Made by a program: the position numbers and the translations under genes. Under the pieces are notes generated by a model. The model did no database searches. It was not told the origin of the DNA and was given only the letters and a program-made list of their open reading frames with translations. DNA of 41,948 nt from Acidobacteriota bacterium (GTDB taxonomy: Bacteria; Acidobacteriota; Terriglobia; Acidiferrales; UBA7541), in the NCBI GenBank assembly GCA_018268785.1, contig JAFDVY010000022.1, positions 1 through 41,948 of the forward strand, read 5' to 3'. Positions 26,335-41,501 of the stretch are shown here, piece by piece; position 1 is the stretch's first letter; the number at the start of each line of letters is the position of its first letter.

Positions 26335-29300
26335 ATGCGCTTCCAACCTCGCAGCTGGACTCTCTCGTCATTCCTGCTTCTTGCCTTCAGCTTGACTTCG
26401 ATTCCACCCGCTATTGCTCAACAGACCGCGCCGGCCAATCCCAAGTCGACGAACTCGAAACCGCTTGCCAGTTCTGCTCAGGCGCAGCCGAAAGAGCCTG
26501 TTGCCTCCGTAGACTCCTCCCAATCAGAAGGGGAAGGCCCCGAATATCTTCGTCGCCGCGCCGAATGGTTTTATCGCCAGCGCGCTTCAGTAAAAGGACG
26601 CATTCCCGGCGGCGCTTACCAACGGGCATTCCAGCATCTTCAGAAAATGCTGGTAGCCGAAGGAAGATTGACACAAAACCCGGACGGCTCTTTCACTGCC
26701 GTGGCAGCCCCTCCACTTTTATCGTCCCTCGCGGTTACGTCCATTTGGAAATCTCTTGGCCCCGCGCCTGCCACTGGTGGGGAATTTTCTCCCGTCACCG
26801 GACGCGTGATGACCATCGCGATTGACCCTAGCGACTCCACTGGAAATACCGTTCTTCTCGGTGGCGCGATGGGAGGCATTTGGCGCAGCACCGATGCTGG
26901 CGCCACTTGGACTTCCGTTGGCGATCAGAACGCCTCTCTCGCCATGGGCTCGATTGCATTTGCCCCTTCGAACCCTGCAACCGTATATGCAGGAACCGGG
27001 GAGTTTTCTCTTGGTTTCGATACCTACTATGGTGCCGGCGTTCTCAAATCGACTGACCACGGAAAGACCTGGACGCAAACCTGTACTGTCGCCAGTGCCT
27101 CTTGTCCGTTCATCGGACCATACCTCGATGCGACAAATCCCGGCTTCGGTTTCCTCAATTTTGGCGGAGCACACATTAGCTACATTTCCGTCAATCCCAC
27201 GAATCCGAATTTGGTCCTTGTGGCCGTTCAGTTAATCGAAGAGGGACCCAAAGAGGGCGTCTACTGCTCTGACAATGGAGGGAACACCTGGTCAAACGTC
27301 CTGGCCGATGAAGAAGCCAGCTTTGTTGGATTCGCCTCTTCCACGGTCGCATACGCAGCCTTCGGCAATATTTTTGGAAGTTCCCAGGGCGCGCCCAATG
27401 GCAATGGCATCTACAAAGCAACGACGATCGGCGCCACCTGTGCCACTGTGCACTTTTCGCGCCTCACCTCCGCCACTCTTCCCACGCAAGCCTCCATGGG
27501 ACGCATTGATTTGGGGATCGCTCCCAGCGACCAGACGGGCAACACCGTCTACGCCTCAATCGCCGACGCTGGCTCCAACTCCGATTTGAATCTTGGCGTT
27601 TTTCTCACGACAAATGGCGGAACCTCCTGGATAAAGACCACTGCCCCGGACGTTTGTCAGCACCAATGCTGGTACGATAACGTCGTCAAAGTTGATCCCA
27701 CTCAACCGGGGACGGCCTTCCTTGCCGGTGGCGCTGTCGCGGATGGCAGCGGCAATCCCGCGTGGGTAGTTCGTACCACCAACAACGGCACGTCATGGTC
27801 TTCCGTCATTCCCAATATTCCGGCTGGTAGCGCGGCTCTTCCGCATGTGGACAATCACGCCCTTGCCATGTTCAAGCTGCAAAACGGCAAAGTCCGCCTT
27901 TATCTTGGCAATGATGGCGGCATCTGGCGTACCGACGACGCCGAAGCTGCTTCCGTCCAATGGACAAATCTCAATAACCCTTCGCTCTCAATCACCCAGT
28001 TTTATCCCGCCGTTTCTGTTCCCGTATCGAATCCAAACGCTGCCTTCGGCGGAACTCAGGACAACGGAAGCCTTATCTATCAGGGCGGAGTCTCGTGGGT
28101 GGATAGCCAGCTCTGCGGCGACGGCGGCTTCACTGCCGTCGATAATCAGATTCCAAGCACAATCTACGTTGGGTGTGTCACTGGAGCTCCCGTAAACGTA
28201 TCCGTTCAGAACGGAGCGCTGGGCACATTTTCTCCAGCATCCAGCGGCATTAATCCCGCTGACAATTCCAGTTTCGTGCCGCCTCTCGCTACCGACCCCA
28301 ATACACCGAACGTCCTCTATTTCGGCACTGTCAAGGTCTACCAATCTTTGGACGCAGGCACGACTTGGAACGTCATCAGTCCAGATTTGGTCGGAGGCAA
28401 CAATTGGCTTACAGCGCTAACAGTTGCGCCCGGCAATCCAAACATCCTCTACGCCGGTTCCAACACCAATGCCGGTTTTACGTTCACCAACATTTCGGTC
28501 ACGAATACCAATTTCGTCGGCGCAAGCTTTTGGAATCAGAGCGGAATTCCGCCTCGCCAAATCAACTCAATTGGTGCCGATCCATCTGACGCCACAGGCA
28601 TGACTGCCTATGTCGCATTCTCTGGATTTTCTTTTGTCGGCAACGATCCCTTTGGGAATGCAGTGAATGATCCGCTCGGTCACATCTTTAAGACAACGAA
28701 CGGCGGTCAATCTTGGTCGGACGTCAGTTGTTCCGTCGCAAATTGTTCCACGCCGGCCGCAAAAGACTTGCCGAATGTCCCTGTCAACGACGTACTCGTC
28801 GATCCGAATTTACCGAATACTCTTTACGCCGCCACCGACCTCGGCGTTTTCATCGGCGATTGTTCCACTTCGCCCTGCTCTTGGACCACCCTTGGCACCG
28901 GTCTGCCCCGCGTTGCAGTACTTTCGCTTCGCGTTCACGCAGCGTCCCGCACGCTCTTGGCTGGCACACACGGCCGCGGTGCCTGGACCATCGACCTGAA
29001 TAATTTCACATTTTCAGGTCCCCATATTTCTTCCATCTCGCCCGTTTCCGCAAACTCCGGAAGTGCGACCTTCACGCTCACAGTGAATGGTTCGGGCCTT
29101 ACCGGCGGGACAATTCAGTGGAATGGCTCTACGACGGGCGTTACGACGACGCAAGTTTCAGATTCGCAGTTGACGGCCAGTGTGGCTGCATCTCTCGTTG
29201 CTGTTGCCGGTGTTCCAAAGATCACCGCGCAGGTTGCAAGTCAGGCCAGCAATTCGCTGCCATTCTCCGTGCTGGCCGCAACACCCACTCTCACCAGTGT

Positions 29301-31455
29301 TACGCCGTCGAGCACCCCAGTCCAAACTCCGAATCCATCTACAAACATCACCGTAAAATTCATCGGAACGGGATTTTCAAGCTTAGCGAAAATTCTCTGG
29401 AATGGTGCGCCAAGCGGTGCCACCGTCGCAGCCCCCACCGCCTCTTGCCCCCTTCCCACTTGCTTAACGGCATCCTTGCCCGCCAGCCTCTTGGGCCCAT
29501 TTGGCAGCACCAACGACATCAGCGTGCTCAATACTCCTCCCGGCGGCGGTCAATCGAAACCGCTGACCTTTAAGGTCGTCGCCCCTCCACCTCCGAACGA
29601 TAACTTCGCAAACGCCATCATCATCACCACACTGAGCCTTGTTGATCTTCAAGACTCTTCCGGAGCAACAACTGAGTCGTCTGACCCTGTTCCTTCCTGC
29701 GCTACACAATTCACCGCCGCGCAAGGCAACACCGGTGGCCATCCCAACGGTGCCTACAACACCATCTGGTACAAATTCACCCCTCAGTTCTCCGCGAATT
29801 TGTCCCTTGATCTATCTAACAGCTCCTATGACACCGTCTTATCCGTTTGGCAGGGCACGCAGGGAAATCTCACGCAGGTTGCCTGCAACGACGACATAAA
29901 TCCGGGCATTGTTATTCAATCGCAGCTGCAAAGTGTTCCGCTGACCGCAGGCACCACCTACTACATTATGGTCAGCTCGTTTGGCCCTCCGGATGCCAAC
30001 CCCGTCGCCCTGGGTGGACGTTCCTTCTTGATTTTTAACTACAATGGCGGCGAATTCCCGACTCCAACTATCACATCCATGTCGCCGACAAGCGCCAACT
30101 CAGGCGATCAGGGGGCAACGTTCACTGTGAACGGTTCGAACTTCCTTAGCGGTGCGACGGTTCTAATTGTTACCAGCGAGGATTTCACCCCACAACCTCA
30201 ACCAACGAAATTCATTAGCTCCAGTCAACTCACTGCGAGTGTTCCGGCGTCTGCAATCGCCCTTCCTGGCCCTGGCACCTTGTTTGTACAAAATCCGCAG
30301 CCTTCAATAGGTTCTTCGAACACGCTAAGTTTCACGGTTAACGTCGGCACCTACCCGGTTCCAAAGTTAAACGGCATTTCGCCTGCCAGCGTCATTGCCA
30401 CGACACCTGGCACGGTGATTGATGCGGGCGGCGATTTCTTCGCTTCTAACGCTGTTCTTAACTTCAACGGAGTTGCTGAGCAGACCACAGTCAATAATCC
30501 AACGAGTCTCACCGCAATTATTCCTGCATCTCAGATTGGCGTCGCGAACGTCGGCACAATACAGGTCACCGTTTCGAACCCCAGCCCAGGTGGCGGGCCT
30601 TCGACCTCGATTCCGTTTACAGTCACGCTGCCAAATCCAATTCCGACCATTACTTCCATAAACCCGTCCAGCGTGCCCGCAAACCCATCGAATCCTCCGA
30701 CAGTAACCGTCAGCGGTTCGAACTTTCAACAAGGAGCTGCACTCTTTTTTTTCAGTAGCGCATCGAATAATTTCGTTCAGACTGCCACTTTCGTGAGCGC
30801 GACCCAACTCACCTTCGTGCCACTCGGTTATGTCCTCAATAGTCCGGCTTCCTACAGCGTCTCTGTTGTCGATCCTCCTCCGGGTGGCTACTCCAATTCC
30901 GTAAATTTTGCGGTCGTCGCACCGGACTTCACCCTCACTGCTTCCGGAACAATCTCCCAAACCGTCAACGCTGGCGCCACGGCAACCTACACAAACGTGC
31001 TGACGGTCTCGCCTCAAAACGGATTCGCTTCCACTGTGAATCTTTCTTGCTCCGTCATCGCTACCGCCACACACTGTTCCGTTAACCCAACATCGCTGAC
31101 TAACGGCTCCGCCACGGTTGCCGTCACTACAACGGCTCGTGCGCTTATGCCGCCGATATTCCGCACTCCTCGACCTTATTGGCCGTTGCCGGTCTATTTG
31201 TTCCTGATCGCAGCAGTTCTCGCCGCGATTTTGTTGGCGCTTCGTGCGCGGCGTTTCCGCCTCGCTTTCGCGATTCCGTTCGCAGCGCTTGCGCTCCTCT
31301 TTGTTCTCCATTCCGCCGGTTGCGGCGGTGGCAGCTACTCGCCTCCTCCGCCCCCGCCTCCGACCGGCACTGCGGCGGGCACCTACACGATCAACGTGAC
31401 CGCCACCTCCGGCACCTTAACGCACACAACCACGCTCACCCTGGTCGTGAATTAG
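26335..31455 (+). CDS. Giant exported Asp-box/IPT-repeat protein with split C-terminal domain
   Basis: This encodes 1706 residues. The signal peptide is about 1-28 ('IPPAIAQQ'). Residues ~130-880 contain many sortilin/BNR-type Asp-box motifs ('STDAGATW', 'STDHGKTW', 'SDNGGNTW', 'TTNGGTSW', 'SLDAGTTW'), implying beta-propellers. Then come IPT/TIG immunoglobulin-like repeats ('ISSISPVSANSG', 'LTSVTPSSTP'), a pre-peptidase-like beta domain ('NTIWYKFTPQFSANLSLDLS'), and three more IPT repeats ('ITSMSPTSANSG', 'LNGISPASV', 'ITSINPSSVP'). The final Ig-like domain is interrupted by two hydrophobic helices (about 1615-1662), a cysteine-glycine stretch 'CGGG' (C1663) and a proline run, then resumes with 'GTYTINVTATSG'. 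It is probably a surface or secreted adhesin or glycan-binding protein; no catalytic residues were identified. Confidence 0.88.
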   Translation: MRFQPRSWTLSSFLLLAFSLTSIPPAIAQQTAPANPKSTNSKPLASSAQAQPKEPVASVDSSQSEGEGPEYLRRRAEWFYRQRASVKGRIPGGAYQRAFQHLQKMLVAEGRLTQNPDGSFTAVAAPPLLSSLAVTSIWKSLGPAPATGGEFSPVTGRVMTIAIDPSDSTGNTVLLGGAMGGIWRSTDAGATWTSVGDQNASLAMGSIAFAPSNPATVYAGTGEFSLGFDTYYGAGVLKSTDHGKTWTQTCTVASASCPFIGPYLDATNPGFGFLNFGGAHISYISVNPTNPNLVLVAVQLIEEGPKEGVYCSDNGGNTWSNVLADEEASFVGFASSTVAYAAFGNIFGSSQGAPNGNGIYKATTIGATCATVHFSRLTSATLPTQASMGRIDLGIAPSDQTGNTVYASIADAGSNSDLNLGVFLTTNGGTSWIKTTAPDVCQHQCWYDNVVKVDPTQPGTAFLAGGAVADGSGNPAWVVRTTNNGTSWSSVIPNIPAGSAALPHVDNHALAMFKLQNGKVRLYLGNDGGIWRTDDAEAASVQWTNLNNPSLSITQFYPAVSVPVSNPNAAFGGTQDNGSLIYQGGVSWVDSQLCGDGGFTAVDNQIPSTIYVGCVTGAPVNVSVQNGALGTFSPASSGINPADNSSFVPPLATDPNTPNVLYFGTVKVYQSLDAGTTWNVISPDLVGGNNWLTALTVAPGNPNILYAGSNTNAGFTFTNISVTNTNFVGASFWNQSGIPPRQINSIGADPSDATGMTAYVAFSGFSFVGNDPFGNAVNDPLGHIFKTTNGGQSWSDVSCSVANCSTPAAKDLPNVPVNDVLVDPNLPNTLYAATDLGVFIGDCSTSPCSWTTLGTGLPRVAVLSLRVHAASRTLLAGTHGRGAWTIDLNNFTFSGPHISSISPVSANSGSATFTLTVNGSGLTGGTIQWNGSTTGVTTTQVSDSQLTASVAASLVAVAGVPKITAQVASQASNSLPFSVLAATPTLTSVTPSSTPVQTPNPSTNITVKFIGTGFSSLAKILWNGAPSGATVAAPTASCPLPTCLTASLPASLLGPFGSTNDISVLNTPPGGGQSKPLTFKVVAPPPPNDNFANAIIITTLSLVDLQDSSGATTESSDPVPSCATQFTAAQGNTGGHPNGAYNTIWYKFTPQFSANLSLDLSNSSYDTVLSVWQGTQGNLTQVACNDDINPGIVIQSQLQSVPLTAGTTYYIMVSSFGPPDANPVALGGRSFLIFNYNGGEFPTPTITSMSPTSANSGDQGATFTVNGSNFLSGATVLIVTSEDFTPQPQPTKFISSSQLTASVPASAIALPGPGTLFVQNPQPSIGSSNTLSFTVNVGTYPVPKLNGISPASVIATTPGTVIDAGGDFFASNAVLNFNGVAEQTTVNNPTSLTAIIPASQIGVANVGTIQVTVSNPSPGGGPSTSIPFTVTLPNPIPTITSINPSSVPANPSNPPTVTVSGSNFQQGAALFFFSSASNNFVQTATFVSATQLTFVPLGYVLNSPASYSVSVVDPPPGGYSNSVNFAVVAPDFTLTASGTISQTVNAGATATYTNVLTVSPQNGFASTVNLSCSVIATATHCSVNPTSLTNGSATVAVTTTARALMPPIFRTPRPYWPLPVYLFLIAAVLAAILLALRARRFRLAFAIPFAALALLFVLHSAGCGGGSYSPPPPPPPTGTAAGTYTINVTATSGTLTHTTTLTLVVN

Positions 31456-31503: not shown

Positions 31504-33180
31504 CTAATTCTTGCAACTCTCGGGAATCGTCTGTTCCTTCGTGATCAATTTTTCTCGATGATCGATTCCGCCCGACGCCGCCACCTCTCCCACATTCAAT
31601 TGCCGCAAAAAGAAATTGATCGCCGTGTTGATCACCTGCGGCATCGAATAGCCCACTCCCACCGCAAGATCAATCGACAGCGTCGCCGATTTGCACATCT
31701 TTATCCCTAAATCTGACCCTCGCGTGAATCCCACCGATGCGATGTAGTTGATGTACGGCCCCGTCACAAATCCAAACGCACCGATTCCCACGATCACTTT
31801 TCCCGAATACGCCAGCACGATTCCATTCACTCCCACCGAAGCCCCGCCAATCGTGTTCACCAGCGATTTCTTCACCGAAAAGTCCATGGGTGCCGCCGCG
31901 GTCCACTGCCCGTTGATGTATCCCATCTGGAAGCTGCCCTTGAATCCGTAATCCGCTGTCGCCGTCAAAGACGCAGTCTTCGCGCTGAACGCTGTCTTCA
32001 GCAGAAATGTCTGCTTCAGCGTCGCCGCAAATGGCACTGCCAACCCCGAAATCGGAATGCTGAAATCCACGGGCAGCGCGATCTCTTTTCCCAGGTTGTT
32101 CAGCGTCGCGCTCGCGTCCATCGATGTCCCCGCTTCGAAATCGAACGTCAGCCCCGCCGCGCCTTTCAATTCCAGCGCCGCCGTCCGGATTTGCCCGCCC
32201 TTGATGTCCAGATTGAAATGCAGCGAAGGATGGTCCAGCTTGATCACCGCATACGCCAGAAACCGCAGCCCCGCCTTGTCGTACTGAATCTTCAGCCCGA
32301 TTCCGCCGCAGCAAAATGGCTTCAAGTTGAAGTCCGATAGCTGAATGTCCTGCGGCGGCCCTTTCAGTGGAGGCACACCCGGCGTGCCCGGCAGTTTCGG
32401 CGTTTGCGCGAACGAAATTTCCTTTGCCGTCGGATGCGTCGTCCCATAGAGCGCCAGATTCCGCACCGCCGCCACATCGCGATCTGTCCAAATCACCGGA
32501 CTGTCTTGTTCCGACAAATCTCCGGGCAGCGCTCTCTTCGTTCCGCGCAGGGACTGAAAGCCGCCGTCCGGCAGAATCAAGCTCACTCCCACGGCTCGTA
32601 CTTCGCCGCGGCCGCCAAGCCGTGGCTGGATTGCCTGAGTCAGTTTTGGCGCTTCCGCAACCGCACCCGGATAGTCTGGCGCCGTATAGGCAATCATCGA
32701 ATCCAGATCCAGCGGCTGATCCGTCGCCATCGTCGCATCTTGAATAATGTCCGTCAGCGCCACAGGCCCCAGCAGCAATGTCAGGTTGTTCCCGTCGCGT
32801 TGCGTCGCCAGAATTTTTCCCGCCGCGCGGCTCGTCAGAAACACGATCTTTCCCGTCTTCATCTGCGCCGCTTCCGGCAAGTTCGCGTCAATCGTGACGC
32901 TCACGCCATCCGAATTCGCCGATTTGATCGCGTCCGCGCCGTGCTCCACCACAATCACGTCCGGCTGGTACGTCACCTGGCTGTTCTTCGTCGGAGAAAC
33001 GCCGTACTTAAACTCGTTCTCACTCAGCTTCGAAGTGTCAAACGCTTTCCCCTGCCGCGCCTCGTTCCGCGTCTCTTCTGAAACCTCCTGCTTCTTGCAC
33101 CCCTCCAGCAATCCCCCCGGCCCCGCTACCATCACAAATGCCAGTATTCCCGCACTAATCCTCCGTCGCGATTCCCGCAT
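31504..33180 (-). CDS. Predicted lipoprotein of unknown function
   Basis: This encodes 558 residues. ATG 33180 has a strong GAGGAGAG Shine-Dalgarno. The N-terminus 'MRESRRRISAGILAF' plus 'GGLLEGCKKQ' is a lipoprotein signal with lipidation cysteine C28 (lipobox LEGC). The first half is mixed alpha/beta, including 'PDVIVVEHGADAIKSA' and 'GKIVFLTSRAAGKILATQRD'. The second half, from 'DIQLSDFNLKPFCCGGIGLK', consists of alternating hydrophobic and polar residues typical of long antiparallel beta strands ('LHFNLDIKGGQIRTAALELK', 'TASLTATADYGFKGSFQMGY'). I do not recognise the family. It is convergent with the giant exported protein (48 bp between stops). A role at the outer membrane is inferred only from the lipid anchor and beta character. 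Confidence 0.8.
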   Translation of the reverse strand: MRESRRRISAGILAFVMVAGPGGLLEGCKKQEVSEETRNEARQGKAFDTSKLSENEFKYGVSPTKNSQVTYQPDVIVVEHGADAIKSANSDGVSVTIDANLPEAAQMKTGKIVFLTSRAAGKILATQRDGNNLTLLLGPVALTDIIQDATMATDQPLDLDSMIAYTAPDYPGAVAEAPKLTQAIQPRLGGRGEVRAVGVSLILPDGGFQSLRGTKRALPGDLSEQDSPVIWTDRDVAAVRNLALYGTTHPTAKEISFAQTPKLPGTPGVPPLKGPPQDIQLSDFNLKPFCCGGIGLKIQYDKAGLRFLAYAVIKLDHPSLHFNLDIKGGQIRTAALELKGAAGLTFDFEAGTSMDASATLNNLGKEIALPVDFSIPISGLAVPFAATLKQTFLLKTAFSAKTASLTATADYGFKGSFQMGYINGQWTAAAPMDFSVKKSLVNTIGGASVGVNGIVLAYSGKVIVGIGAFGFVTGPYINYIASVGFTRGSDLGIKMCKSATLSIDLAVGVGYSMPQVINTAINFFLRQLNVGEVAASGGIDHREKLITKEQTIPESCKN

Positions 33181-35055: not shown

Positions 35056-37377
35056 ATGCCGGATTCGCCGGCACGAAACAATTTTGAAGCCCTGCGCAGA
35101 CTCGCCCACGATCCGGGAACGGAGCGCATGGCCACAAAAGAAGAATTAGTCGGGCTGCTCGAACGCGGCGCGGAAACTCCGTTGCCCTCGCCGGAACTTG
35201 CGCAAACGCAAGTTGTGCCTGCGCCGATCGCCGCCGCGCCTGCGCCGATCGCGCAAGTCGCGAACCAATCTGTCGCGCCTGTTCAAAGCGCCGAAAAAAT
35301 GCCAGTCGCAAAAATTCCCATGCAAGAAACCATCCCGGCAAAAACAGAGAAAAAAGAATTGAAAGAAAAGGAATTTAGAGAAAAAGAAATTGGAGAAAAA
35401 GAAATTGCGCCGGCGCGCGCGATTCCGATTCCCGATGAGGAAAGCCACGATCCGGGAACGCAACTCGATCTGGTGGAACTCGCCGCCATTCTCGATCAGC
35501 ACAGAATTTGGGTCGAATCCGGCGGAGACGAAGGAACGAAGGCCGATCTCAGCGGCGTGAATCTCGAAAGCGCGGATTTGACCGGCGTGAATCTGCAGGG
35601 TGCGATTTTGCAGCGCGCGAATCTGCGCAACTCGGATCTTTCGATGGCGAATTTGCGCGGCGCATCGCTGGTTCAGGCGGATTTGTGCAACGCGAATCTG
35701 CTCGGCGCGGAATTGCGCGGCGCGAATTTAATGGGTGCAACGTTATACGGTGCGGAAGGTTTGTGGCTCGGCAGGCTGGGCGGCGCGAATTTGTACGATG
35801 CGATGCTGCCGGAAACGATTTCGTCGATCGACGGATCGAAAGCGGTTTGGGAGGCGACGAGAACGGCGCGCTGGTTTTACTTTTTGATGTTGAGTGCGAG
35901 CGCACTCTGTTGCCTGGTCGTGGCGACGACTTCGGACGCGCGCCTGATTCTGGACGGCTCGACAATTCCGATTCGACGGCTCGGGAATTTGCTGCCGATC
36001 AATGCGTTTTATCTGATTGCGCCGATTGCCCTGCTGACGATTTTTGTGCGCTTTCAGTTTTTGCTGCTGCGCGTCTGGAGCAGCATGGCGGCGCTGCCCG
36101 CGGTTTTTCAGGACGGACAAACGGTCGAACGCGAAGGGCCGTGGTATTTGATGGGACTGGTGCGGCGGCATTTCCGCTGGCTGCGCGAAGCGAAGACGCC
36201 GGTGTCGCTTTTGGAAAACGTGATGGCCACACTTTTGGCGTACTGGGTTGTTCCCGCGACGATCGCGTTGATTTGGATGCGCTATCTGGTGCGGCAGGAT
36301 TTGCGCGGATCGGCTCTGCACGTTTTGTTTTTTGCGCTGAGCGTGAGCGTCGCAACGGGATTGCCCGCGGTGGTCAGTCGCGTCGTGAAGCCCGGAGAAA
36401 TTCGGCGGCCCAGCTCGAAGAGCATTTTGAAACTGGCGTTCGTGACGATGCGCATTCCAGTTGCGGCGGGACTCGTTCTGCTGCTGCTTTCGTTCGGCGT
36501 GATGTGGGGCGTACCGGCGGAAACGGAAGCATCGAAGAGATATTTCAGCGGAAGCCCGCGCCGCTGGGTTGCGGAAGGCTTCCGGTTTGTCGGCTACCGG
36601 CCTTACGCGGATTTGATTGAATCGTCGCTGGTGCAGCCGCGCAGCAAAGGCGAAGCTGCTTCGGAAGACGGCGCAAAATTGAATGAAGGAAGTTTGCGTT
36701 ACGCGCGCGCTTACCGGGCGTATTTGCCGAACGCGAGATTGTGGCGCGGCGATTTGGTGGGCGCGTATTTGACGGAATCGGATCTGCATGGATCGAATTT
36801 GCGCGAAGCGAAGATGCGCGACGCCGTGCTGGATCACACGAATCTGGAAAAGGCCACGCTGATTTCCGCGGATGGAACGTCCGCAAATCTGACGGGCGCA
36901 AATTTGCGCGGCGCCGATTTTACCTATGCCGTCTTTCCGCAGGCCTCTTTTGCGAACGCCAAGCTCGAAGGAGCTTCGCTCTACGGCGCGAATCTGCAGC
37001 AGACAAAATGGTTGCGGGCGGACTTGACGCGAACGGATGTACGCGACACGCAGATGCAAAGCGCGAACCTATCGCTATCGAATCTTGAACTGGCGGATTT
37101 TTCCGGCGCGAAGCTGAACGGCGCGTCGCTTTCCGGAGCGCAGATGAAAGGAACGATTTTCCTGGGCACAGATTTGCGCGCCGCCGATCTGCGAGGAGCC
37201 ATCTTCACCGGAACGGTTTTGCGAGATGCGATTCTGGAAGGCGCAAAACTGGATGGCGCCGATCTGCACGGCGCGCTCGGACTCACCGCCACGCAAGTGT
37301 GCTCGACGGCAAGTTTTGCCGACGCCCAATTCGATCCCGACGTGCAAGCCGCCGTACAAGCCCTCTGCAAGCGTTAA
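35056..37377 (+). CDS. Membrane-split pentapeptide-repeat protein
   Basis: This encodes 773 residues. ATG 35056 has GAGGGAAG upstream. Residues 1-95 are Ala/Pro-rich; 96-117 are a Lys/Glu run. A capping motif '[19 protein letters not shown]' (142-160) leads into the first A(D/N)LxX pentapeptide block (about 160-235: '[18 protein letters not shown]'). Then about five membrane helices (near 274-292, 312-338, 387-409, 420-440, 466-485) with a basic loop interrupt it, and a second, longer pentapeptide block follows (about 560-741: '[13 protein letters not shown]', '[13 protein letters not shown]'). The two right-handed beta helices would lie on the cytoplasmic side or on opposite sides, depending on helix count. 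Function is unknown; a membrane scaffold is likelier than a quinolone-resistance (Qnr-type) role. Confidence 0.9.
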
Positions 37378-37508
37378 TTCAAAAAAAATCAGCGCTTTCA
37401 CTCTACTAGTGCGTGCAAAACAGGTGTATAGTTGGCGCCATTTCGCAGGTAAAAGAGAAGCCCCCAGGTCAGGTTTTCTCCGCTGCGCCATCTTCAGGGG
37501 GACGTGTC

Positions 37509-40500
37509 ATGACACACATCTATGGGAGCAGTTTGCGTTTTGCGAGGCAAAAAGCAAGACATGCGATCGGGTTGTGGGCTCTGTTGGCTGTGTTCACGGC
37601 GGTGGCGGCGGGGCAATCGACGAGTCAATTGAATGGCAGCGTTTCCGACCCGTCCAATGCAAGCGTGGCCGGGGCGAAAATTACGTTGACCGAAACGGCG
37701 ACGGGGTTGCAGCGGATCACCGCCAGCAACGCTGCAGGGTTCTACCAGTTCCTCGAAATGCCTCCGGGCACCTACCGGCTGGAAGCGACAGCCAGTGGAT
37801 TTGCGTCTTTTGTGGATCCAAACGTCAAGCTGGTGGTCAAGACGCCATCCACGATAAACATTCAGCTTCAGATCAGCCGTTTGGCGACAGAGGTTATTAC
37901 CGTGGATAGCCAAACACCGCTGATCAACAGCACCGATGCGTCGATAGGCAATACGATTGAACAGAACCAAATCGAGGAATTGCCCATCGCGGACCGCAAC
38001 GTGGTGCAGTTGCTGAGCCTTCAAGCGGGCGTGGCGTACCTGGGTAACGAACTGGATCGAGATAAGGACACGCGGAGCGGCGCGGTGAATGGCACGCGCA
38101 GCGATCAATCGAACGTGACGCTGGATGGGATCGGGGTGAACGACCAGAATAATGGCTACGCGTTCAGCAGCGTGCTGAACATCCCTCCAGATTCAGTTCA
38201 AGAATTCCGCGTGACCACGGCAAATTCGAATGCGGACTCCGGCTATTCCAGCGGCGCGCAGGTTGCCATGGTGACCAAGAGCGGCACGAATGAGTTTCAC
38301 GGCTCGCTCTATGAGTACAACCGCAACACGATTTTCAGCGCCAACGATACCTTCCTGAAGGCGTCGCAATTGGGGAATGGCCAATCCAATACCGCGCCGA
38401 AGCTTTCGCGCAACGTGTTTGGAGTTACCCTGGGGGGACCGATCAAGAAGAATCGCCTCTTCTTCTTTGCCAATTACGAAGGACGACGCGACGCCGAGGG
38501 CAGCAGCATATTGCGGACGGTGCCAAGTGCTACGCTGCGCGCGGGCGATCTTGTGTACCAATGTGCAGACCCGACTCAGTGTCCCGGCGGTACGGTCAAC
38601 GGTGTTACTGGGGTAGCGCCAGGCGACTACGCGCTCGGGCCAACGCAGATCAAGCAGATCGATCCTCTCGGAATCGGCGTCAGTCAGGCCGTTCTGAGCG
38701 TTCTGCAACAATATCCAGGAGCCAATGAGAATGTAGGAGACGGCAGAAACACTTTGGGCTTTCGGTTTGGACCGGCTGTGGACCGCGGCTTTAACACGTA
38801 CATTGTGCGGGCCGATTACCGCTTGACGGCTAGTGGATCCCAAAGCCTGTTTCTGCGTGGGCAGACACAAAATTTCAAGCAACCTGGAGCGCCAGAATTC
38901 CCTGGCCAAGGGGCGGCGACGACAGGGCTGGACGACAGCAAGGGCTTGACGGTCGGACTGACTTCCATCCTGTCTCCTAGACTGAACAACGATCTGCGCT
39001 GGGGTTTCATTCGCCAGGGAGGTCAAAGCGCCGGCTCATCGCTGAATCCGGGGGTTTTTCTCAATGGAATCGACAACCTCGTTCCGTTTACCCGGTCGAC
39101 CAGTTTCTTTGTTCCCGTCAACCAGTTCACTGACAATTTGAGCTGGGAGCGAGGAAATCACACGCTTCAATTCGGCACGGATTTGTTTCTAATTCGCAAC
39201 AACCATATCAGCTACGCGAACTCCTTTTCAGATGTTCAAACCAATGCGGTGTATCTCAACACCGGCGGAATCGCCAATACTTCCAGTCCTTTAGATCCGG
39301 CAAACAACATAAACCCTGCGACGAATCAGCCCTATCCAGCGGTGGACAGCAACTTCGGCCCGAACTACGACAGTGCCGCGACCATCATCCTGGGCATTTT
39401 TCCCGAGGGAGACGGAATTTATAATTTTTCGCGTGACGGCAGCGCTTTGGGCCAAGGGACGCCGATCAAGCGGCGTTATGCGATCAATGACTATGAATTT
39501 TTTGCGCAGGACAGCTGGCGAATCAGGCCACACTTGACCTTGACGTACGGCCTTCGCTGGGTTCTGGAAGCCCCACCTTACGAAACCAATGGGTATCAAG
39601 TCTCTCCTTGTGTCCAGGCGGCGGGAGGTGGCTGCTCGAACCAAAACGTCGCAGACTGGTTTAATCACAGTGCGCAACTGGCCGCGCAGGGGCAACCAGC
39701 AAATAATGCAGGGGAACTCTCGTTTGTACTCGGTGGACCGAGAAATAGCGGTCCGGGCCTATGGAACTGGGACCGCAAGAATTTTTCACCCCGTGTGGCT
39801 GTAGCCTGGTCTCCGGACACCGGCAGCGGATGGATATCAAAGATCTTTGGCAAGAAAGACCAGTTCTCCGTTCGTGGTGGGTACAACATCATGTACGACC
39901 ACTTCGGAATCCCCATCGTGAACAGCTTTGACCAGCACGGCTCGTTCGGCCTCTCGACCGTTCTCGGAAATCCTGCGGGCGTTGTTTCCCCGTCGAACGC
40001 GCCACGATTTACGTGCCTCACTCCGGGCTCTGGCAACCAGTCCTGTTTGCCTGACCCCTGCCCATCCCTCAACGGCCCGGGCTGTTTGTTTGGACCCGCG
40101 CCGACGGGTGGTTTCCCCTATACGCCGGGCAATACGGCGTTTGCCATTAACTGGGGACTGGACCAAACGCTGAAGACGCCTTACGCACACGTTTTTAATT
40201 TCTCGATTTCGCGGCAAATCACCTCGCGTTCCTCGCTGCAAATATCGTATGTCGGGACAATCGCCCGGCGCCTGCCGATGCAGGTCGATCTGGCGATGCC
40301 CACCAATTTGAAAGATGCGACGAGCGGCATGACGTATTTTCAGGCGGCGACCATGCTCTCGAAGGCGGCGGCCACTGGTACGGACGTGAGTCAGATTCAG
40401 CCCATACCGTTTTTCGAGAATGTTTTTCCTGGCTGGGCCAGCGTGACCCAGAGCCAACTGCAAAACCAGAACCTTGCTTGCGCTCCGGGGGCGCTTCCCG

Positions 40501-41501
40501 CCAGTCCTTCCGCCACACAAGCGATTTATGAACTGTGGAACTGCTACCCGCATAACGAAACGTTCGCTCTATTCCAAATGGACCTTCCGAGTTCGATCAC
40601 TCAGGTGAACGTTCCGAACAGCAAGTTCGGGCCTTATGCCTTCTTCCACGACCAGTTCAGCTCGCTCTATGCCTGGCGCAACATCGGCACTTCGGACTAC
40701 AACGCGCTGCAGGTGACTTACAACGTGCGCTGGACGGGGAACCTGCAGGGGCAGTTCAACTATACGTTTTCAAAATCGTTGGACGAGGCTTCGGCGGCGG
40801 AACGAATTGGTCCGTATGAAGGAACCGGCGGAACGGGGAACGATCTGAATGGCGGCGGCATCGTTATCAATTCCTGGGACCCGTTGTCTTTGCGCGGGCT
40901 GTCGGATTTCAACGCTTTCCATCAGATCAACGCCAACTTGATCGACGAGCTGCCCTTTGGCAAGGGGCGCAAGCTGGCCGGAAATGCAGGCCCCGTGCTG
41001 AATGCTTTGATTGGCGGGTGGAAGGTTTCGGGGATTTTCCGGTGGACAAGCGGATTCCCCATTACCGTGAACAATGGTTTCACGTGGGCGACGAATTGGA
41101 ACATCGAGGGAGACGCGATGCTCAATGGCCCGCTTCCCAAGGCAACGAACCCAAGGCATGCCATCGTCAATGGCCAGGACATTGGCCCGGACATCTTTGC
41201 CGATCCGGCGGCGGCGCAAGCCGCGTTTCGCCCGGAGTGGCCGGGCGAATCCGGGGTCCGCAACAACATCATTGGCGACGGGATGTTCAACGTCGATACG
41301 GGAGTCAGCAAAAGCATCTCGCTTGGTGAATCCAGAAGGCTGGAATTCAGCTGGCAGGCGTTTAATGCTTTCAACTCGGTGCGTTACGATGTGCGGAGCG
41401 CACAACCTACGCTTTCCTCCGACGCGGCTCATTTTGGGAAATATCTATCAACGCTGACCACGCCCCGGTTCATGCAGTTCGCGCTGCGGTTTGCATTCTG
41501 A
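37509..41501 (+). CDS. Oar-like TonB-dependent receptor with carboxypeptidase-regulatory-like N-terminus
   Basis: This encodes 1330 residues. ATG 37509 is preceded by AGGGGGA at 7 nt; the frame extends upstream to 37413 but lacks a signal sequence there. The signal peptide is about 1-34 ('LLAVFTAVAAGQS'). Residues 36-125 form a CarboxypepD_reg-like beta-sandwich ('LNGSVSDPSNASVAGAKITL', 'YQFLEMPPGTYRLEATASGF'). The plug follows ('QIEELPIADRNVVQLLSLQA', 'VAMVTKSGTNEFHGSLYEYN'), then a large beta-barrel ending in phenylalanine ('MQFALRFAF'), as outer-membrane proteins do. It sits in the outer membrane for TonB-powered uptake or export of large substrates. The substrate is not predictable; no TonB/ExbBD genes are nearby. 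A strong terminator follows. Confidence 0.93.
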   Translation: MTHIYGSSLRFARQKARHAIGLWALLAVFTAVAAGQSTSQLNGSVSDPSNASVAGAKITLTETATGLQRITASNAAGFYQFLEMPPGTYRLEATASGFASFVDPNVKLVVKTPSTINIQLQISRLATEVITVDSQTPLINSTDASIGNTIEQNQIEELPIADRNVVQLLSLQAGVAYLGNELDRDKDTRSGAVNGTRSDQSNVTLDGIGVNDQNNGYAFSSVLNIPPDSVQEFRVTTANSNADSGYSSGAQVAMVTKSGTNEFHGSLYEYNRNTIFSANDTFLKASQLGNGQSNTAPKLSRNVFGVTLGGPIKKNRLFFFANYEGRRDAEGSSILRTVPSATLRAGDLVYQCADPTQCPGGTVNGVTGVAPGDYALGPTQIKQIDPLGIGVSQAVLSVLQQYPGANENVGDGRNTLGFRFGPAVDRGFNTYIVRADYRLTASGSQSLFLRGQTQNFKQPGAPEFPGQGAATTGLDDSKGLTVGLTSILSPRLNNDLRWGFIRQGGQSAGSSLNPGVFLNGIDNLVPFTRSTSFFVPVNQFTDNLSWERGNHTLQFGTDLFLIRNNHISYANSFSDVQTNAVYLNTGGIANTSSPLDPANNINPATNQPYPAVDSNFGPNYDSAATIILGIFPEGDGIYNFSRDGSALGQGTPIKRRYAINDYEFFAQDSWRIRPHLTLTYGLRWVLEAPPYETNGYQVSPCVQAAGGGCSNQNVADWFNHSAQLAAQGQPANNAGELSFVLGGPRNSGPGLWNWDRKNFSPRVAVAWSPDTGSGWISKIFGKKDQFSVRGGYNIMYDHFGIPIVNSFDQHGSFGLSTVLGNPAGVVSPSNAPRFTCLTPGSGNQSCLPDPCPSLNGPGCLFGPAPTGGFPYTPGNTAFAINWGLDQTLKTPYAHVFNFSISRQITSRSSLQISYVGTIARRLPMQVDLAMPTNLKDATSGMTYFQAATMLSKAAATGTDVSQIQPIPFFENVFPGWASVTQSQLQNQNLACAPGALPASPSATQAIYELWNCYPHNETFALFQMDLPSSITQVNVPNSKFGPYAFFHDQFSSLYAWRNIGTSDYNALQVTYNVRWTGNLQGQFNYTFSKSLDEASAAERIGPYEGTGGTGNDLNGGGIVINSWDPLSLRGLSDFNAFHQINANLIDELPFGKGRKLAGNAGPVLNALIGGWKVSGIFRWTSGFPITVNNGFTWATNWNIEGDAMLNGPLPKATNPRHAIVNGQDIGPDIFADPAAAQAAFRPEWPGESGVRNNIIGDGMFNVDTGVSKSISLGESRRLEFSWQAFNAFNSVRYDVRSAQPTLSSDAAHFGKYLSTLTTPRFMQFALRFAF

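Follow-up and report, generated by a model that had tools for sequence, protein, structure and literature searches.

A terminal Ig-like domain split by a lipoprotein-signal-like insert, a putative C-terminal anchor of exported acidobacterial proteins

Introduction

How might a protein that is exported by an N-terminal signal peptide also carry a lipoprotein-like signal close to its other end, inside an Ig-like domain? The question is raised by a gene in a stretch of acidobacterial DNA of 41,948 nucleotides (contig JAFDVY010000022.1; here called the window). The original prediction, made from the sequence of the window, held that the last Ig-like domain of the encoded protein is interrupted by two hydrophobic helices and resumes with a single final strand. 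It also read the cysteine behind the second helix as an internal lipobox-type site and supposed that similar tails occur in other exported proteins of Acidobacteriota. We find that the tail is a real and recurrent feature. The family to which it belongs is already present in NCBIfam; the present work adds a description of how the tail splits the Ig fold, the finding that a second Ig family is split likewise, and a survey of the processing machinery.

Results and Discussion

A two-helix insert near the C terminus of an exported protein

The host open reading frame (positions 26335 to 31455; this and all features described within it lie on the + strand) encodes an exported protein of 1706 residues. 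It contains a Vps10/BNR-like region, five stretches that an NCBIfam profile search assigns to NF058597 ("choice-of-anchor Z"), and the split Ig-like domain at its end. By its sequence and a crude rule, the segment encoded at positions 26335 to 26418 is an N-terminal Sec signal peptide of type I-like character, which ends in PPAIA-QQ and has no lipobox.

Up to the insert, the terminal Ig-like domain spans residues 1529-1600 (positions 30919 to 31134), as delimited by profile, by AlphaFold2 and by uninterrupted sister domains, and the last strand of this part is VAVTTT (residues 1595-1600). Directly after this strand begins an insert of 77 residues (1601-1677; positions 31135 to 31365), which the sisters and the profile place in the loop leading to the last two strands. 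The insert opens with a Pro/Arg linker, followed by hydrophobic helix 1 (1618-1637; positions 31186 to 31245), which is seen in the AlphaFold2 model and in hydropathy. Then come a basic, Arg-rich loop, RARRFR (1637-1642; positions 31243 to 31260), presumed to be cytoplasmic, and hydrophobic helix 2 (1646-1660; positions 31270 to 31314), which in model and sequence resembles the h-region of a type II signal peptide. AG-C1663-GGG and seven prolines complete the insert, and the chain continues as GTYTINVTATSG...HTTTLTLVVN up to the C terminus. C1663 (positions 31321 to 31323; HSAG-C-GGG), invariant in the tail alignment, is the presumed site of lipidation and cleavage. A cut there would define a C-terminal fragment of 44 residues (1663-1706; positions 31321 to 31452) made up of a Gly/Pro linker and the last two Ig strands (1682-1692 and 1695-1705; positions 31378 to 31449). 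These strands complete the sandwich in the AlphaFold2 model and the structure matches; the predicted single final strand is thus in fact a pair.

The converging neighbor (positions 31504 to 33180, - strand) begins MRESRRRISAGILAFVMVAGPGGLLEGCKKQ, an N-terminal lipoprotein-like signal, and a Pfam search of it returned no family at E<=1e-4. Downstream of the tail gene, on the + strand, lie a pentapeptide-repeat protein (positions 35056 to 37377) and a large outer-membrane beta-barrel protein that carries a carboxypeptidase-regulatory-like domain (positions 37413 to 41501).

The window tail belongs to NCBIfam family NF058595

The window tail (residues 1592-1706) matches NF058595 at the C terminus of the protein, over model positions 2-113, scoring 95.8 bits where the cut-off is 37. 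This family is named invert_tail and described as a "lipo-invert putative C-terminal anchoring domain," and the window tail is a member of it. Its name likewise points to an anchor of inverted, lipoprotein-like type, with the anchoring itself called putative, and the library entry makes no mention of a split Ig fold. A literature search by family name, accession and related phrases, which covered listings and the beginnings of abstracts, returned no paper about such a tail; judging by titles and abstracts, the literature on a "C-terminal lipobox" appears to treat ordinary signal peptides.

The family model also reaches other kinds of protein. Two uninterrupted Ig domains (L058 and L059) score 37.4 and 37.2 bits, attaining the cut-off through the C-terminal piece alone, and an N-terminal lipoprotein (L057) scores 38.7 bits; a second such lipoprotein (L143) scores 32.4 bits. 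Hence, NF058595 can name proteins that have no C-terminal tail. When the window's own genome was searched at E up to 1, the 22 matches included three tails, one uninterrupted strand pair and, reading by eye, about 11 N-terminal lipoprotein signals. Such signals are matched by the half of the model that holds helix 2 and the Cys.

The insert interrupts one Ig-like domain at a fixed loop

We assembled a set of 88 tails, consisting of the window tail and 87 others picked by hand from matching rows in genomes of the phylum; the many rows outside this selection include those of G163, a near twin of G094. A profile of 108 positions was built from 32 distinct uninterrupted domains, with the tails left out. 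The window domain matches it in two collinear pieces, at profile positions 3-74 (51.6 bits) and 78-107 (28.9 bits). All 88 tails match before the insert and 78 of them match after it as well, the second match being absent in 10; none of the 88 gives a single match spanning the insert. In 79/88 tails the first piece ends at model position 74-86, and in 76 of the 78 the second begins at 66-84. Insert lengths in the set range from 59 to 97 residues (median, 72.5).

Does the sequence behind the insert perhaps belong to a separate, complete domain? In other families of the phylum, uninterrupted relatives run ...STLSVTTAGTTPAGTYTLTITGTSGALSHSTTVSLNVQ as one domain (L058, and likewise L059, L140 and L141). 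A tail profile freed of the insert found 44 full-length matches without interruption in the fetched DNA, each with both halves as one unit, and some open reading frames carry tandem uninterrupted copies and end in a split copy (for example, L071 and L101). Because these sister domains show the contiguous form, the insertion point is fixed. Together with the two-piece profile match, they led us to reject a separate complete domain after the insert, the finding by which the original prediction was to fall. In nearly all tails tested, the insert sits in the same loop of the fold.

Structure prediction agrees. AlphaFold2, run on the window tail with 87 relatives, gave a model of mean pLDDT 87.9 consisting of six strands, two helices in the insert and two further strands. 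The Ig parts mostly reach 92-98 and the strands after the insert about 97-98; the helices are lower, in blocks of about 69-87, from a program that has no notion of a membrane. Range 20-195 of the model aligns to contiguous solved domains of about 100 residues, among them the Vpr fibril form (Z 12.1; 98 aligned residues) and residues 404-502 of Micromonospora sialidase 1eut (VIA Z 11.1; rmsd 2.0; 94 aligned residues). Since the model aligns with contiguous domains of this size, the sandwich is closed by the last two strands, with the insert as a loop outside it. A plain Foldseek search with the window model was weak (best E, 3.7e-3), as may be expected given the long insert. An uninterrupted sister from L071, modeled with a mean pLDDT of 96.8, shares its eight strands and its best structure matches with the split domain.

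The fold is a beta sandwich like that of the Micromonospora sialidase domain, which we take to be of the NEW3 type, and so is NEW3-like. The split domain likewise resembles PF10633 (NPCBM_assoc/NEW3-like), whereas known PF10633 domains are uninterrupted; two uninterrupted sisters score 14.7 and 15.9 bits against PF10633, below its cut-off of 24.4. We conclude that the terminal Ig-like domain is indeed interrupted by a two-helix insert, as sisters, two-piece profile match and model all indicate.

A second Ig family is split at the matching loop

One low-scoring tail in the window's own genome (G000:C40; L011/L209) carries the same module, helix-Arg-helix-GC-Gly, within a Big_3_5 domain, and four relatives of this type were found in other genomes (L210-L213). 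Known PF16640 (Big_3_5) domains, which these split domains resemble, are uninterrupted, whereas PF16640 matches all five tails in two stretches, four of them above the cut-off. Among the matches listed, the first parts end at model position 52-56 and one second part begins at 62 of 88. In the 5/5 tails examined, the split point again precedes the last two strands. That two Ig families are split at matching loops suggests that position in the fold matters, beyond common descent of the tail. Against NF058595, the five score 28.8 to 40.5 bits, and since two of them fall below the cut-off, that model partly misses tails of this type.

The invariant Cys lies in a lipoprotein-like context

No alignment column but that of the Cys is invariant in the 88 tails (88/88). 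The script that extracted its context favored a Cys preceded by G, A or S; alignment A1, made without this preference, gave the same 88/88. The preceding residue is G in 62 tails, A in 17 and S in 9. The following residue is G in 62, S in 15, A in 8, N in 2 and T in 1, and Asp in none. In every tail, including AG-C1663 of the window, the G/A/S-Cys pair closes a hydrophobic stretch that comes after a basic region: positions -36 to -12 from the Cys hold 386 K/R and 4 D/E across the set. The last K/R stands 14-23 residues before the Cys (median, 18), compared with 11-21 (median, 16) in 23 N-terminal lipoprotein-like rows from the same DNA, a set that includes some doubtful rows and in which one protein or more occurs in triplicate. 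A PROSITE-like lipobox pattern fits 69/88 tails and the strict form [LVI][ASTVI][GAS]C fits 31/88; HSAGC of the window fits neither, and one tail from a named genome (L157) has Asn before the Cys. Of 315 further internal hydrophobic segments in the fetched DNA, only 4 have [GAS]C[GSAN] at their end. Given the NF058595 score of 95.8 bits (cut-off, 37), the Cys in 88/88 tails and this background, the tail is beyond chance. The reading of its Cys as a lipobox-type site is supported.

Ordinary N-terminal lipoproteins, processed by Lgt and LspA (type II), share the basic region, the hydrophobic stretch, the G/A/S-Cys pair and a Gly/Ser-rich continuation. In them, however, the signal is at the N terminus of the precursor, whereas here it is 44 residues from the C terminus (with 43 residues behind the Cys in the window and 34-55 across the 88 tails), and an exported passenger and an extra helix precede it; this helix would restore the orientation. 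The N terminus is type I-like in 73 of the 80 tail open reading frames with a complete 5' end, by a crude rule that chose both start codons and signal peptides, in a set that includes close copies (L051, L056) and some probable non-genes (L017, L030); five "lipobox-like" calls appear spurious by eye.

A proposed scheme for lipid anchoring through the C-terminal end

From these sequence features and the model we infer a topology, with lipidation, cleavage and stapling to follow. The N-terminal type I signal peptide would export the protein until helix 1 halts in the inner membrane, which would place the Arg-rich loop in the cytoplasm. Helix 2 would then re-enter the membrane oriented like a lipoprotein signal (basic, hydrophobic, lipobox). 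The general Lgt could lipidate C1663 and LspA could cut before it, to yield a 44-residue lipopeptide whose two beta strands would stay in the terminal Ig sandwich. In this way the Ig fold would staple the large passenger to its lipid anchor, and a 44-residue lipopeptide bound to the passenger is the prediction of the scheme. We give a probability of roughly 0.58 to the reading of the tail as a C-terminal lipid-anchoring module that combines an internal lipoprotein signal, Lgt/LspA processing and Ig stapling. For the single step of lipidation our confidence is somewhat higher, and we regard it as probable.

Would one cut be enough? After a single cut the passenger would stay in the inner membrane, because the two-helix hairpin remains on it, and for the same reason the lipid would add little, since the hairpin already holds the passenger there. 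Arrival at the outer membrane would require a second cut in the linker before helix 1, which is speculation. It is possible, though we think it doubtful, that the insert is excised at both ends, by LspA at the Cys and by another protease in this linker; what would be left is a complete though nicked Ig domain, the last two strands of which lie on a separate, lipidated peptide. If so, a passenger would be held on a lipid by beta-strand pairing alone, possibly at the outer membrane, and C-terminal lipid anchoring without a dedicated sortase would serve several proteins per genome in much of the class. No motif for a second cut was found in the linker before helix 1 in the 88 tails. A Pro column there (81/88 in a MAFFT alignment) was considered as a conserved sorting motif and rejected; it has no fixed context, and we treat it as an alignment effect of a Pro-rich linker.

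Alternatively, the tail could be an uncleaved two-helix anchor that loops out of the Ig domain, the chain staying whole and the Cys being at most S-acylated or otherwise kept. Two hydrophobic helices with a basic loop are enough for anchoring, a single chain accounts for the completed Ig fold with no need of stapling, and the lipobox is degenerate in many tails, as the strict count shows. Such an anchor nevertheless leaves unexplained why the Cys alone is invariant, why G, A or S precedes it in all 88 tails and a Gly/Ser run follows, and why the Cys half of NF058595 matches N-terminal lipoprotein signals. We consider the uncleaved anchor unlikely.

Processing machinery of tail-bearing genomes

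If the lipid-anchoring scheme holds, the enzymes it calls upon are the common ones. LspA is single-copy in all 26 tail-bearing genomes tested. Lgt (PF01790) has at least two matches in 21 of them and one in G000, G023, G121, G210 and G216; because these five have a single match, a second Lgt is not required. These counts led us to reject a dedicated LspA or Lgt paralogue. Genomes of family f2 (for example, G094, G225 and G241) commonly show, in addition to their main PF01790 match, a second Lgt-like match to the same Pfam family with a lower score.

Perhaps a dedicated enzyme is at work instead? Helix 1 and the Arg loop could act like a PEP-CTERM or MYXO-CTERM tag, the cut being made by a dedicated intramembrane enzyme, either close to helix 1 or at the Cys, and the remainder being discarded. 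The order linker-helix-Arg does resemble that of tripartite C-terminal sorting tags, an invariant Cys is likewise present in MYXO-CTERM (PMC11980579), and exosortase (PF09721, E<=1e-5) matches in 21/26 tail-bearing genomes tested, the window's own included. Exosortase, the enzyme surveyed, has no match at this threshold in the tail-bearing genomes G007, G023, G179, G225 and G216, however, and hence the tail as a kind appears not to need it; exosortase dependence was rejected on this count. The linker moreover has no fixed motif, and a discarded end would have no need of conserved Ig strands. Processing of the sortase type thus seems improbable to us.

That the last strands are instead a mini-domain of a fused small lipoprotein, lying by coincidence behind an Ig domain that is complete or degenerate, might be supposed from the ability of the C-terminal piece to reach the NF058595 cut-off by itself, yet this is already contradicted by the 44 uninterrupted matches with both halves as a unit, by the two collinear pieces in 78/88 tails with none in one piece across the insert, and by a model that closes one sandwich, and we give it next to no weight.

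Comparison with other C-terminal tags

PEP-CTERM/exosortase and GlyGly-CTERM/rhombosortase are C-terminal sorting systems whose tags, a short motif and one helix, occur on many unrelated exported proteins. The tail is like them in being such a tag and unlike them in having Ig strands behind it. GAIN/GPS domains of adhesion receptors cut themselves and keep the cut-off strand in a beta fold. A cut strand kept in a beta fold is also what the lipid-anchoring scheme would produce, whereas here LspA would do the cutting and the strands would bear a lipid; the comparison is one of analogy, and no homology is claimed.

MYXO-CTERM, as described in PMC11980579, is a C-terminal tag with an invariant Cys, a helix and an Arg run on proteins with an N-terminal Sec signal, and its lipidation is proposed, in an "inverted topology" without a defined lipobox. 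MYXO-CTERM runs Cys-helix-Arg at the end of the protein, whereas the tail runs helix-Arg-helix-Cys and then has two Ig strands, and so does not end in the Arg-rich manner of MYXO-CTERM. Compared with that order, the extra helix would turn the chain round again, so that Arg-helix-Cys takes the normal orientation of a lipoprotein.

Distribution and passengers

Similar tails do occur in other exported proteins of Acidobacteriota, as scans of the phylum, the class and named genomes all show. In the phylum scan, 35 of 247 genomes matched NF058595 at E<=1e-6, 30 of them above the cut-off; 26 belong to the class of the window and nine lie outside it. Among these nine are one true tail (G216), five uninterrupted Ig domains (L058, L059, L140, L141 and L142) and two N-terminal lipoproteins (L057 and L143), the remaining one being L144. 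Hence, the tally of 35 overstates the tail, since most matches outside the class are not true tails. In the class scan, 184/299 sampled genomes matched the tail model at E<=1e-8, most of these matches being uninspected individually. Families f1, f2 and f79 account for most of the matching genomes of the class scan, and among its matching rows f77, f78, f80 and f82 are unrepresented. The richest genome of the phylum scan has at least 17 tail-model matches, and copy numbers per genome are lower bounds in both scans, which scored up to 17 (phylum) and up to 14 (class) candidates per genome. A scan of named genomes gave 50 loci, 48 with insert and Cys and two without (L185 and L192); carriers include Granulicella mallensis, Silvibacterium bohemicum, Candidatus Sulfotelmatobacter and MAGs of gp1, gp2 and gp13, and the closest to the window are three gp2 MAGs. 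A tblastn search of plasmids with the tail gave no match.

The passengers are diverse. Among 47 tail open reading frames with a complete 5' end, one of them without an NF058595 match, we counted SBBP propeller in 17, DUF7948 in 17, Big_3_5 in 10 and pro-kumamolisin in 7, besides others. Against NCBIfam (E<=1e-5), the same 47 gave LipL53-type SBBP lipoprotein in 17, choice-of-anchor D in 7 and the PEP-CTERM family TIGR03118 in 1. Going by the family names, passengers from families named for other anchors would be as expected of an interchangeable anchor.

The tail probably anchors many exported acidobacterial proteins to a membrane by their C-terminal end. With matches in 184/299 genomes of the class and at least 17 in one genome, it may be a main route by which these soil bacteria attach large exported proteins. 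If the lipid-anchoring scheme is correct, the common lipoprotein enzymes alone could attach a lipid to a Sec-exported protein at its C-terminal end, one added helix restoring the orientation and the signal sitting in an Ig loop that tolerates cutting.

Tails were also seen in MAGs of Candidatus Aminicenantes (L153, L161) and in MAGs labeled Gammaproteobacteria (L175, L183), which may reflect spread, misbinning or mislabeling. In some genomes, two or three tail-bearing genes stand close together on one strand (G241:C1:3934131-3941153, L069; G084:C13, L065; G147:C13, L097). Finally, the window's own genome holds a normal-order counterpart of the tail: L014, on contig C244, is an N-terminal lipoprotein in which lipobox and proline run are followed directly by an uninterrupted Ig domain of the same family.
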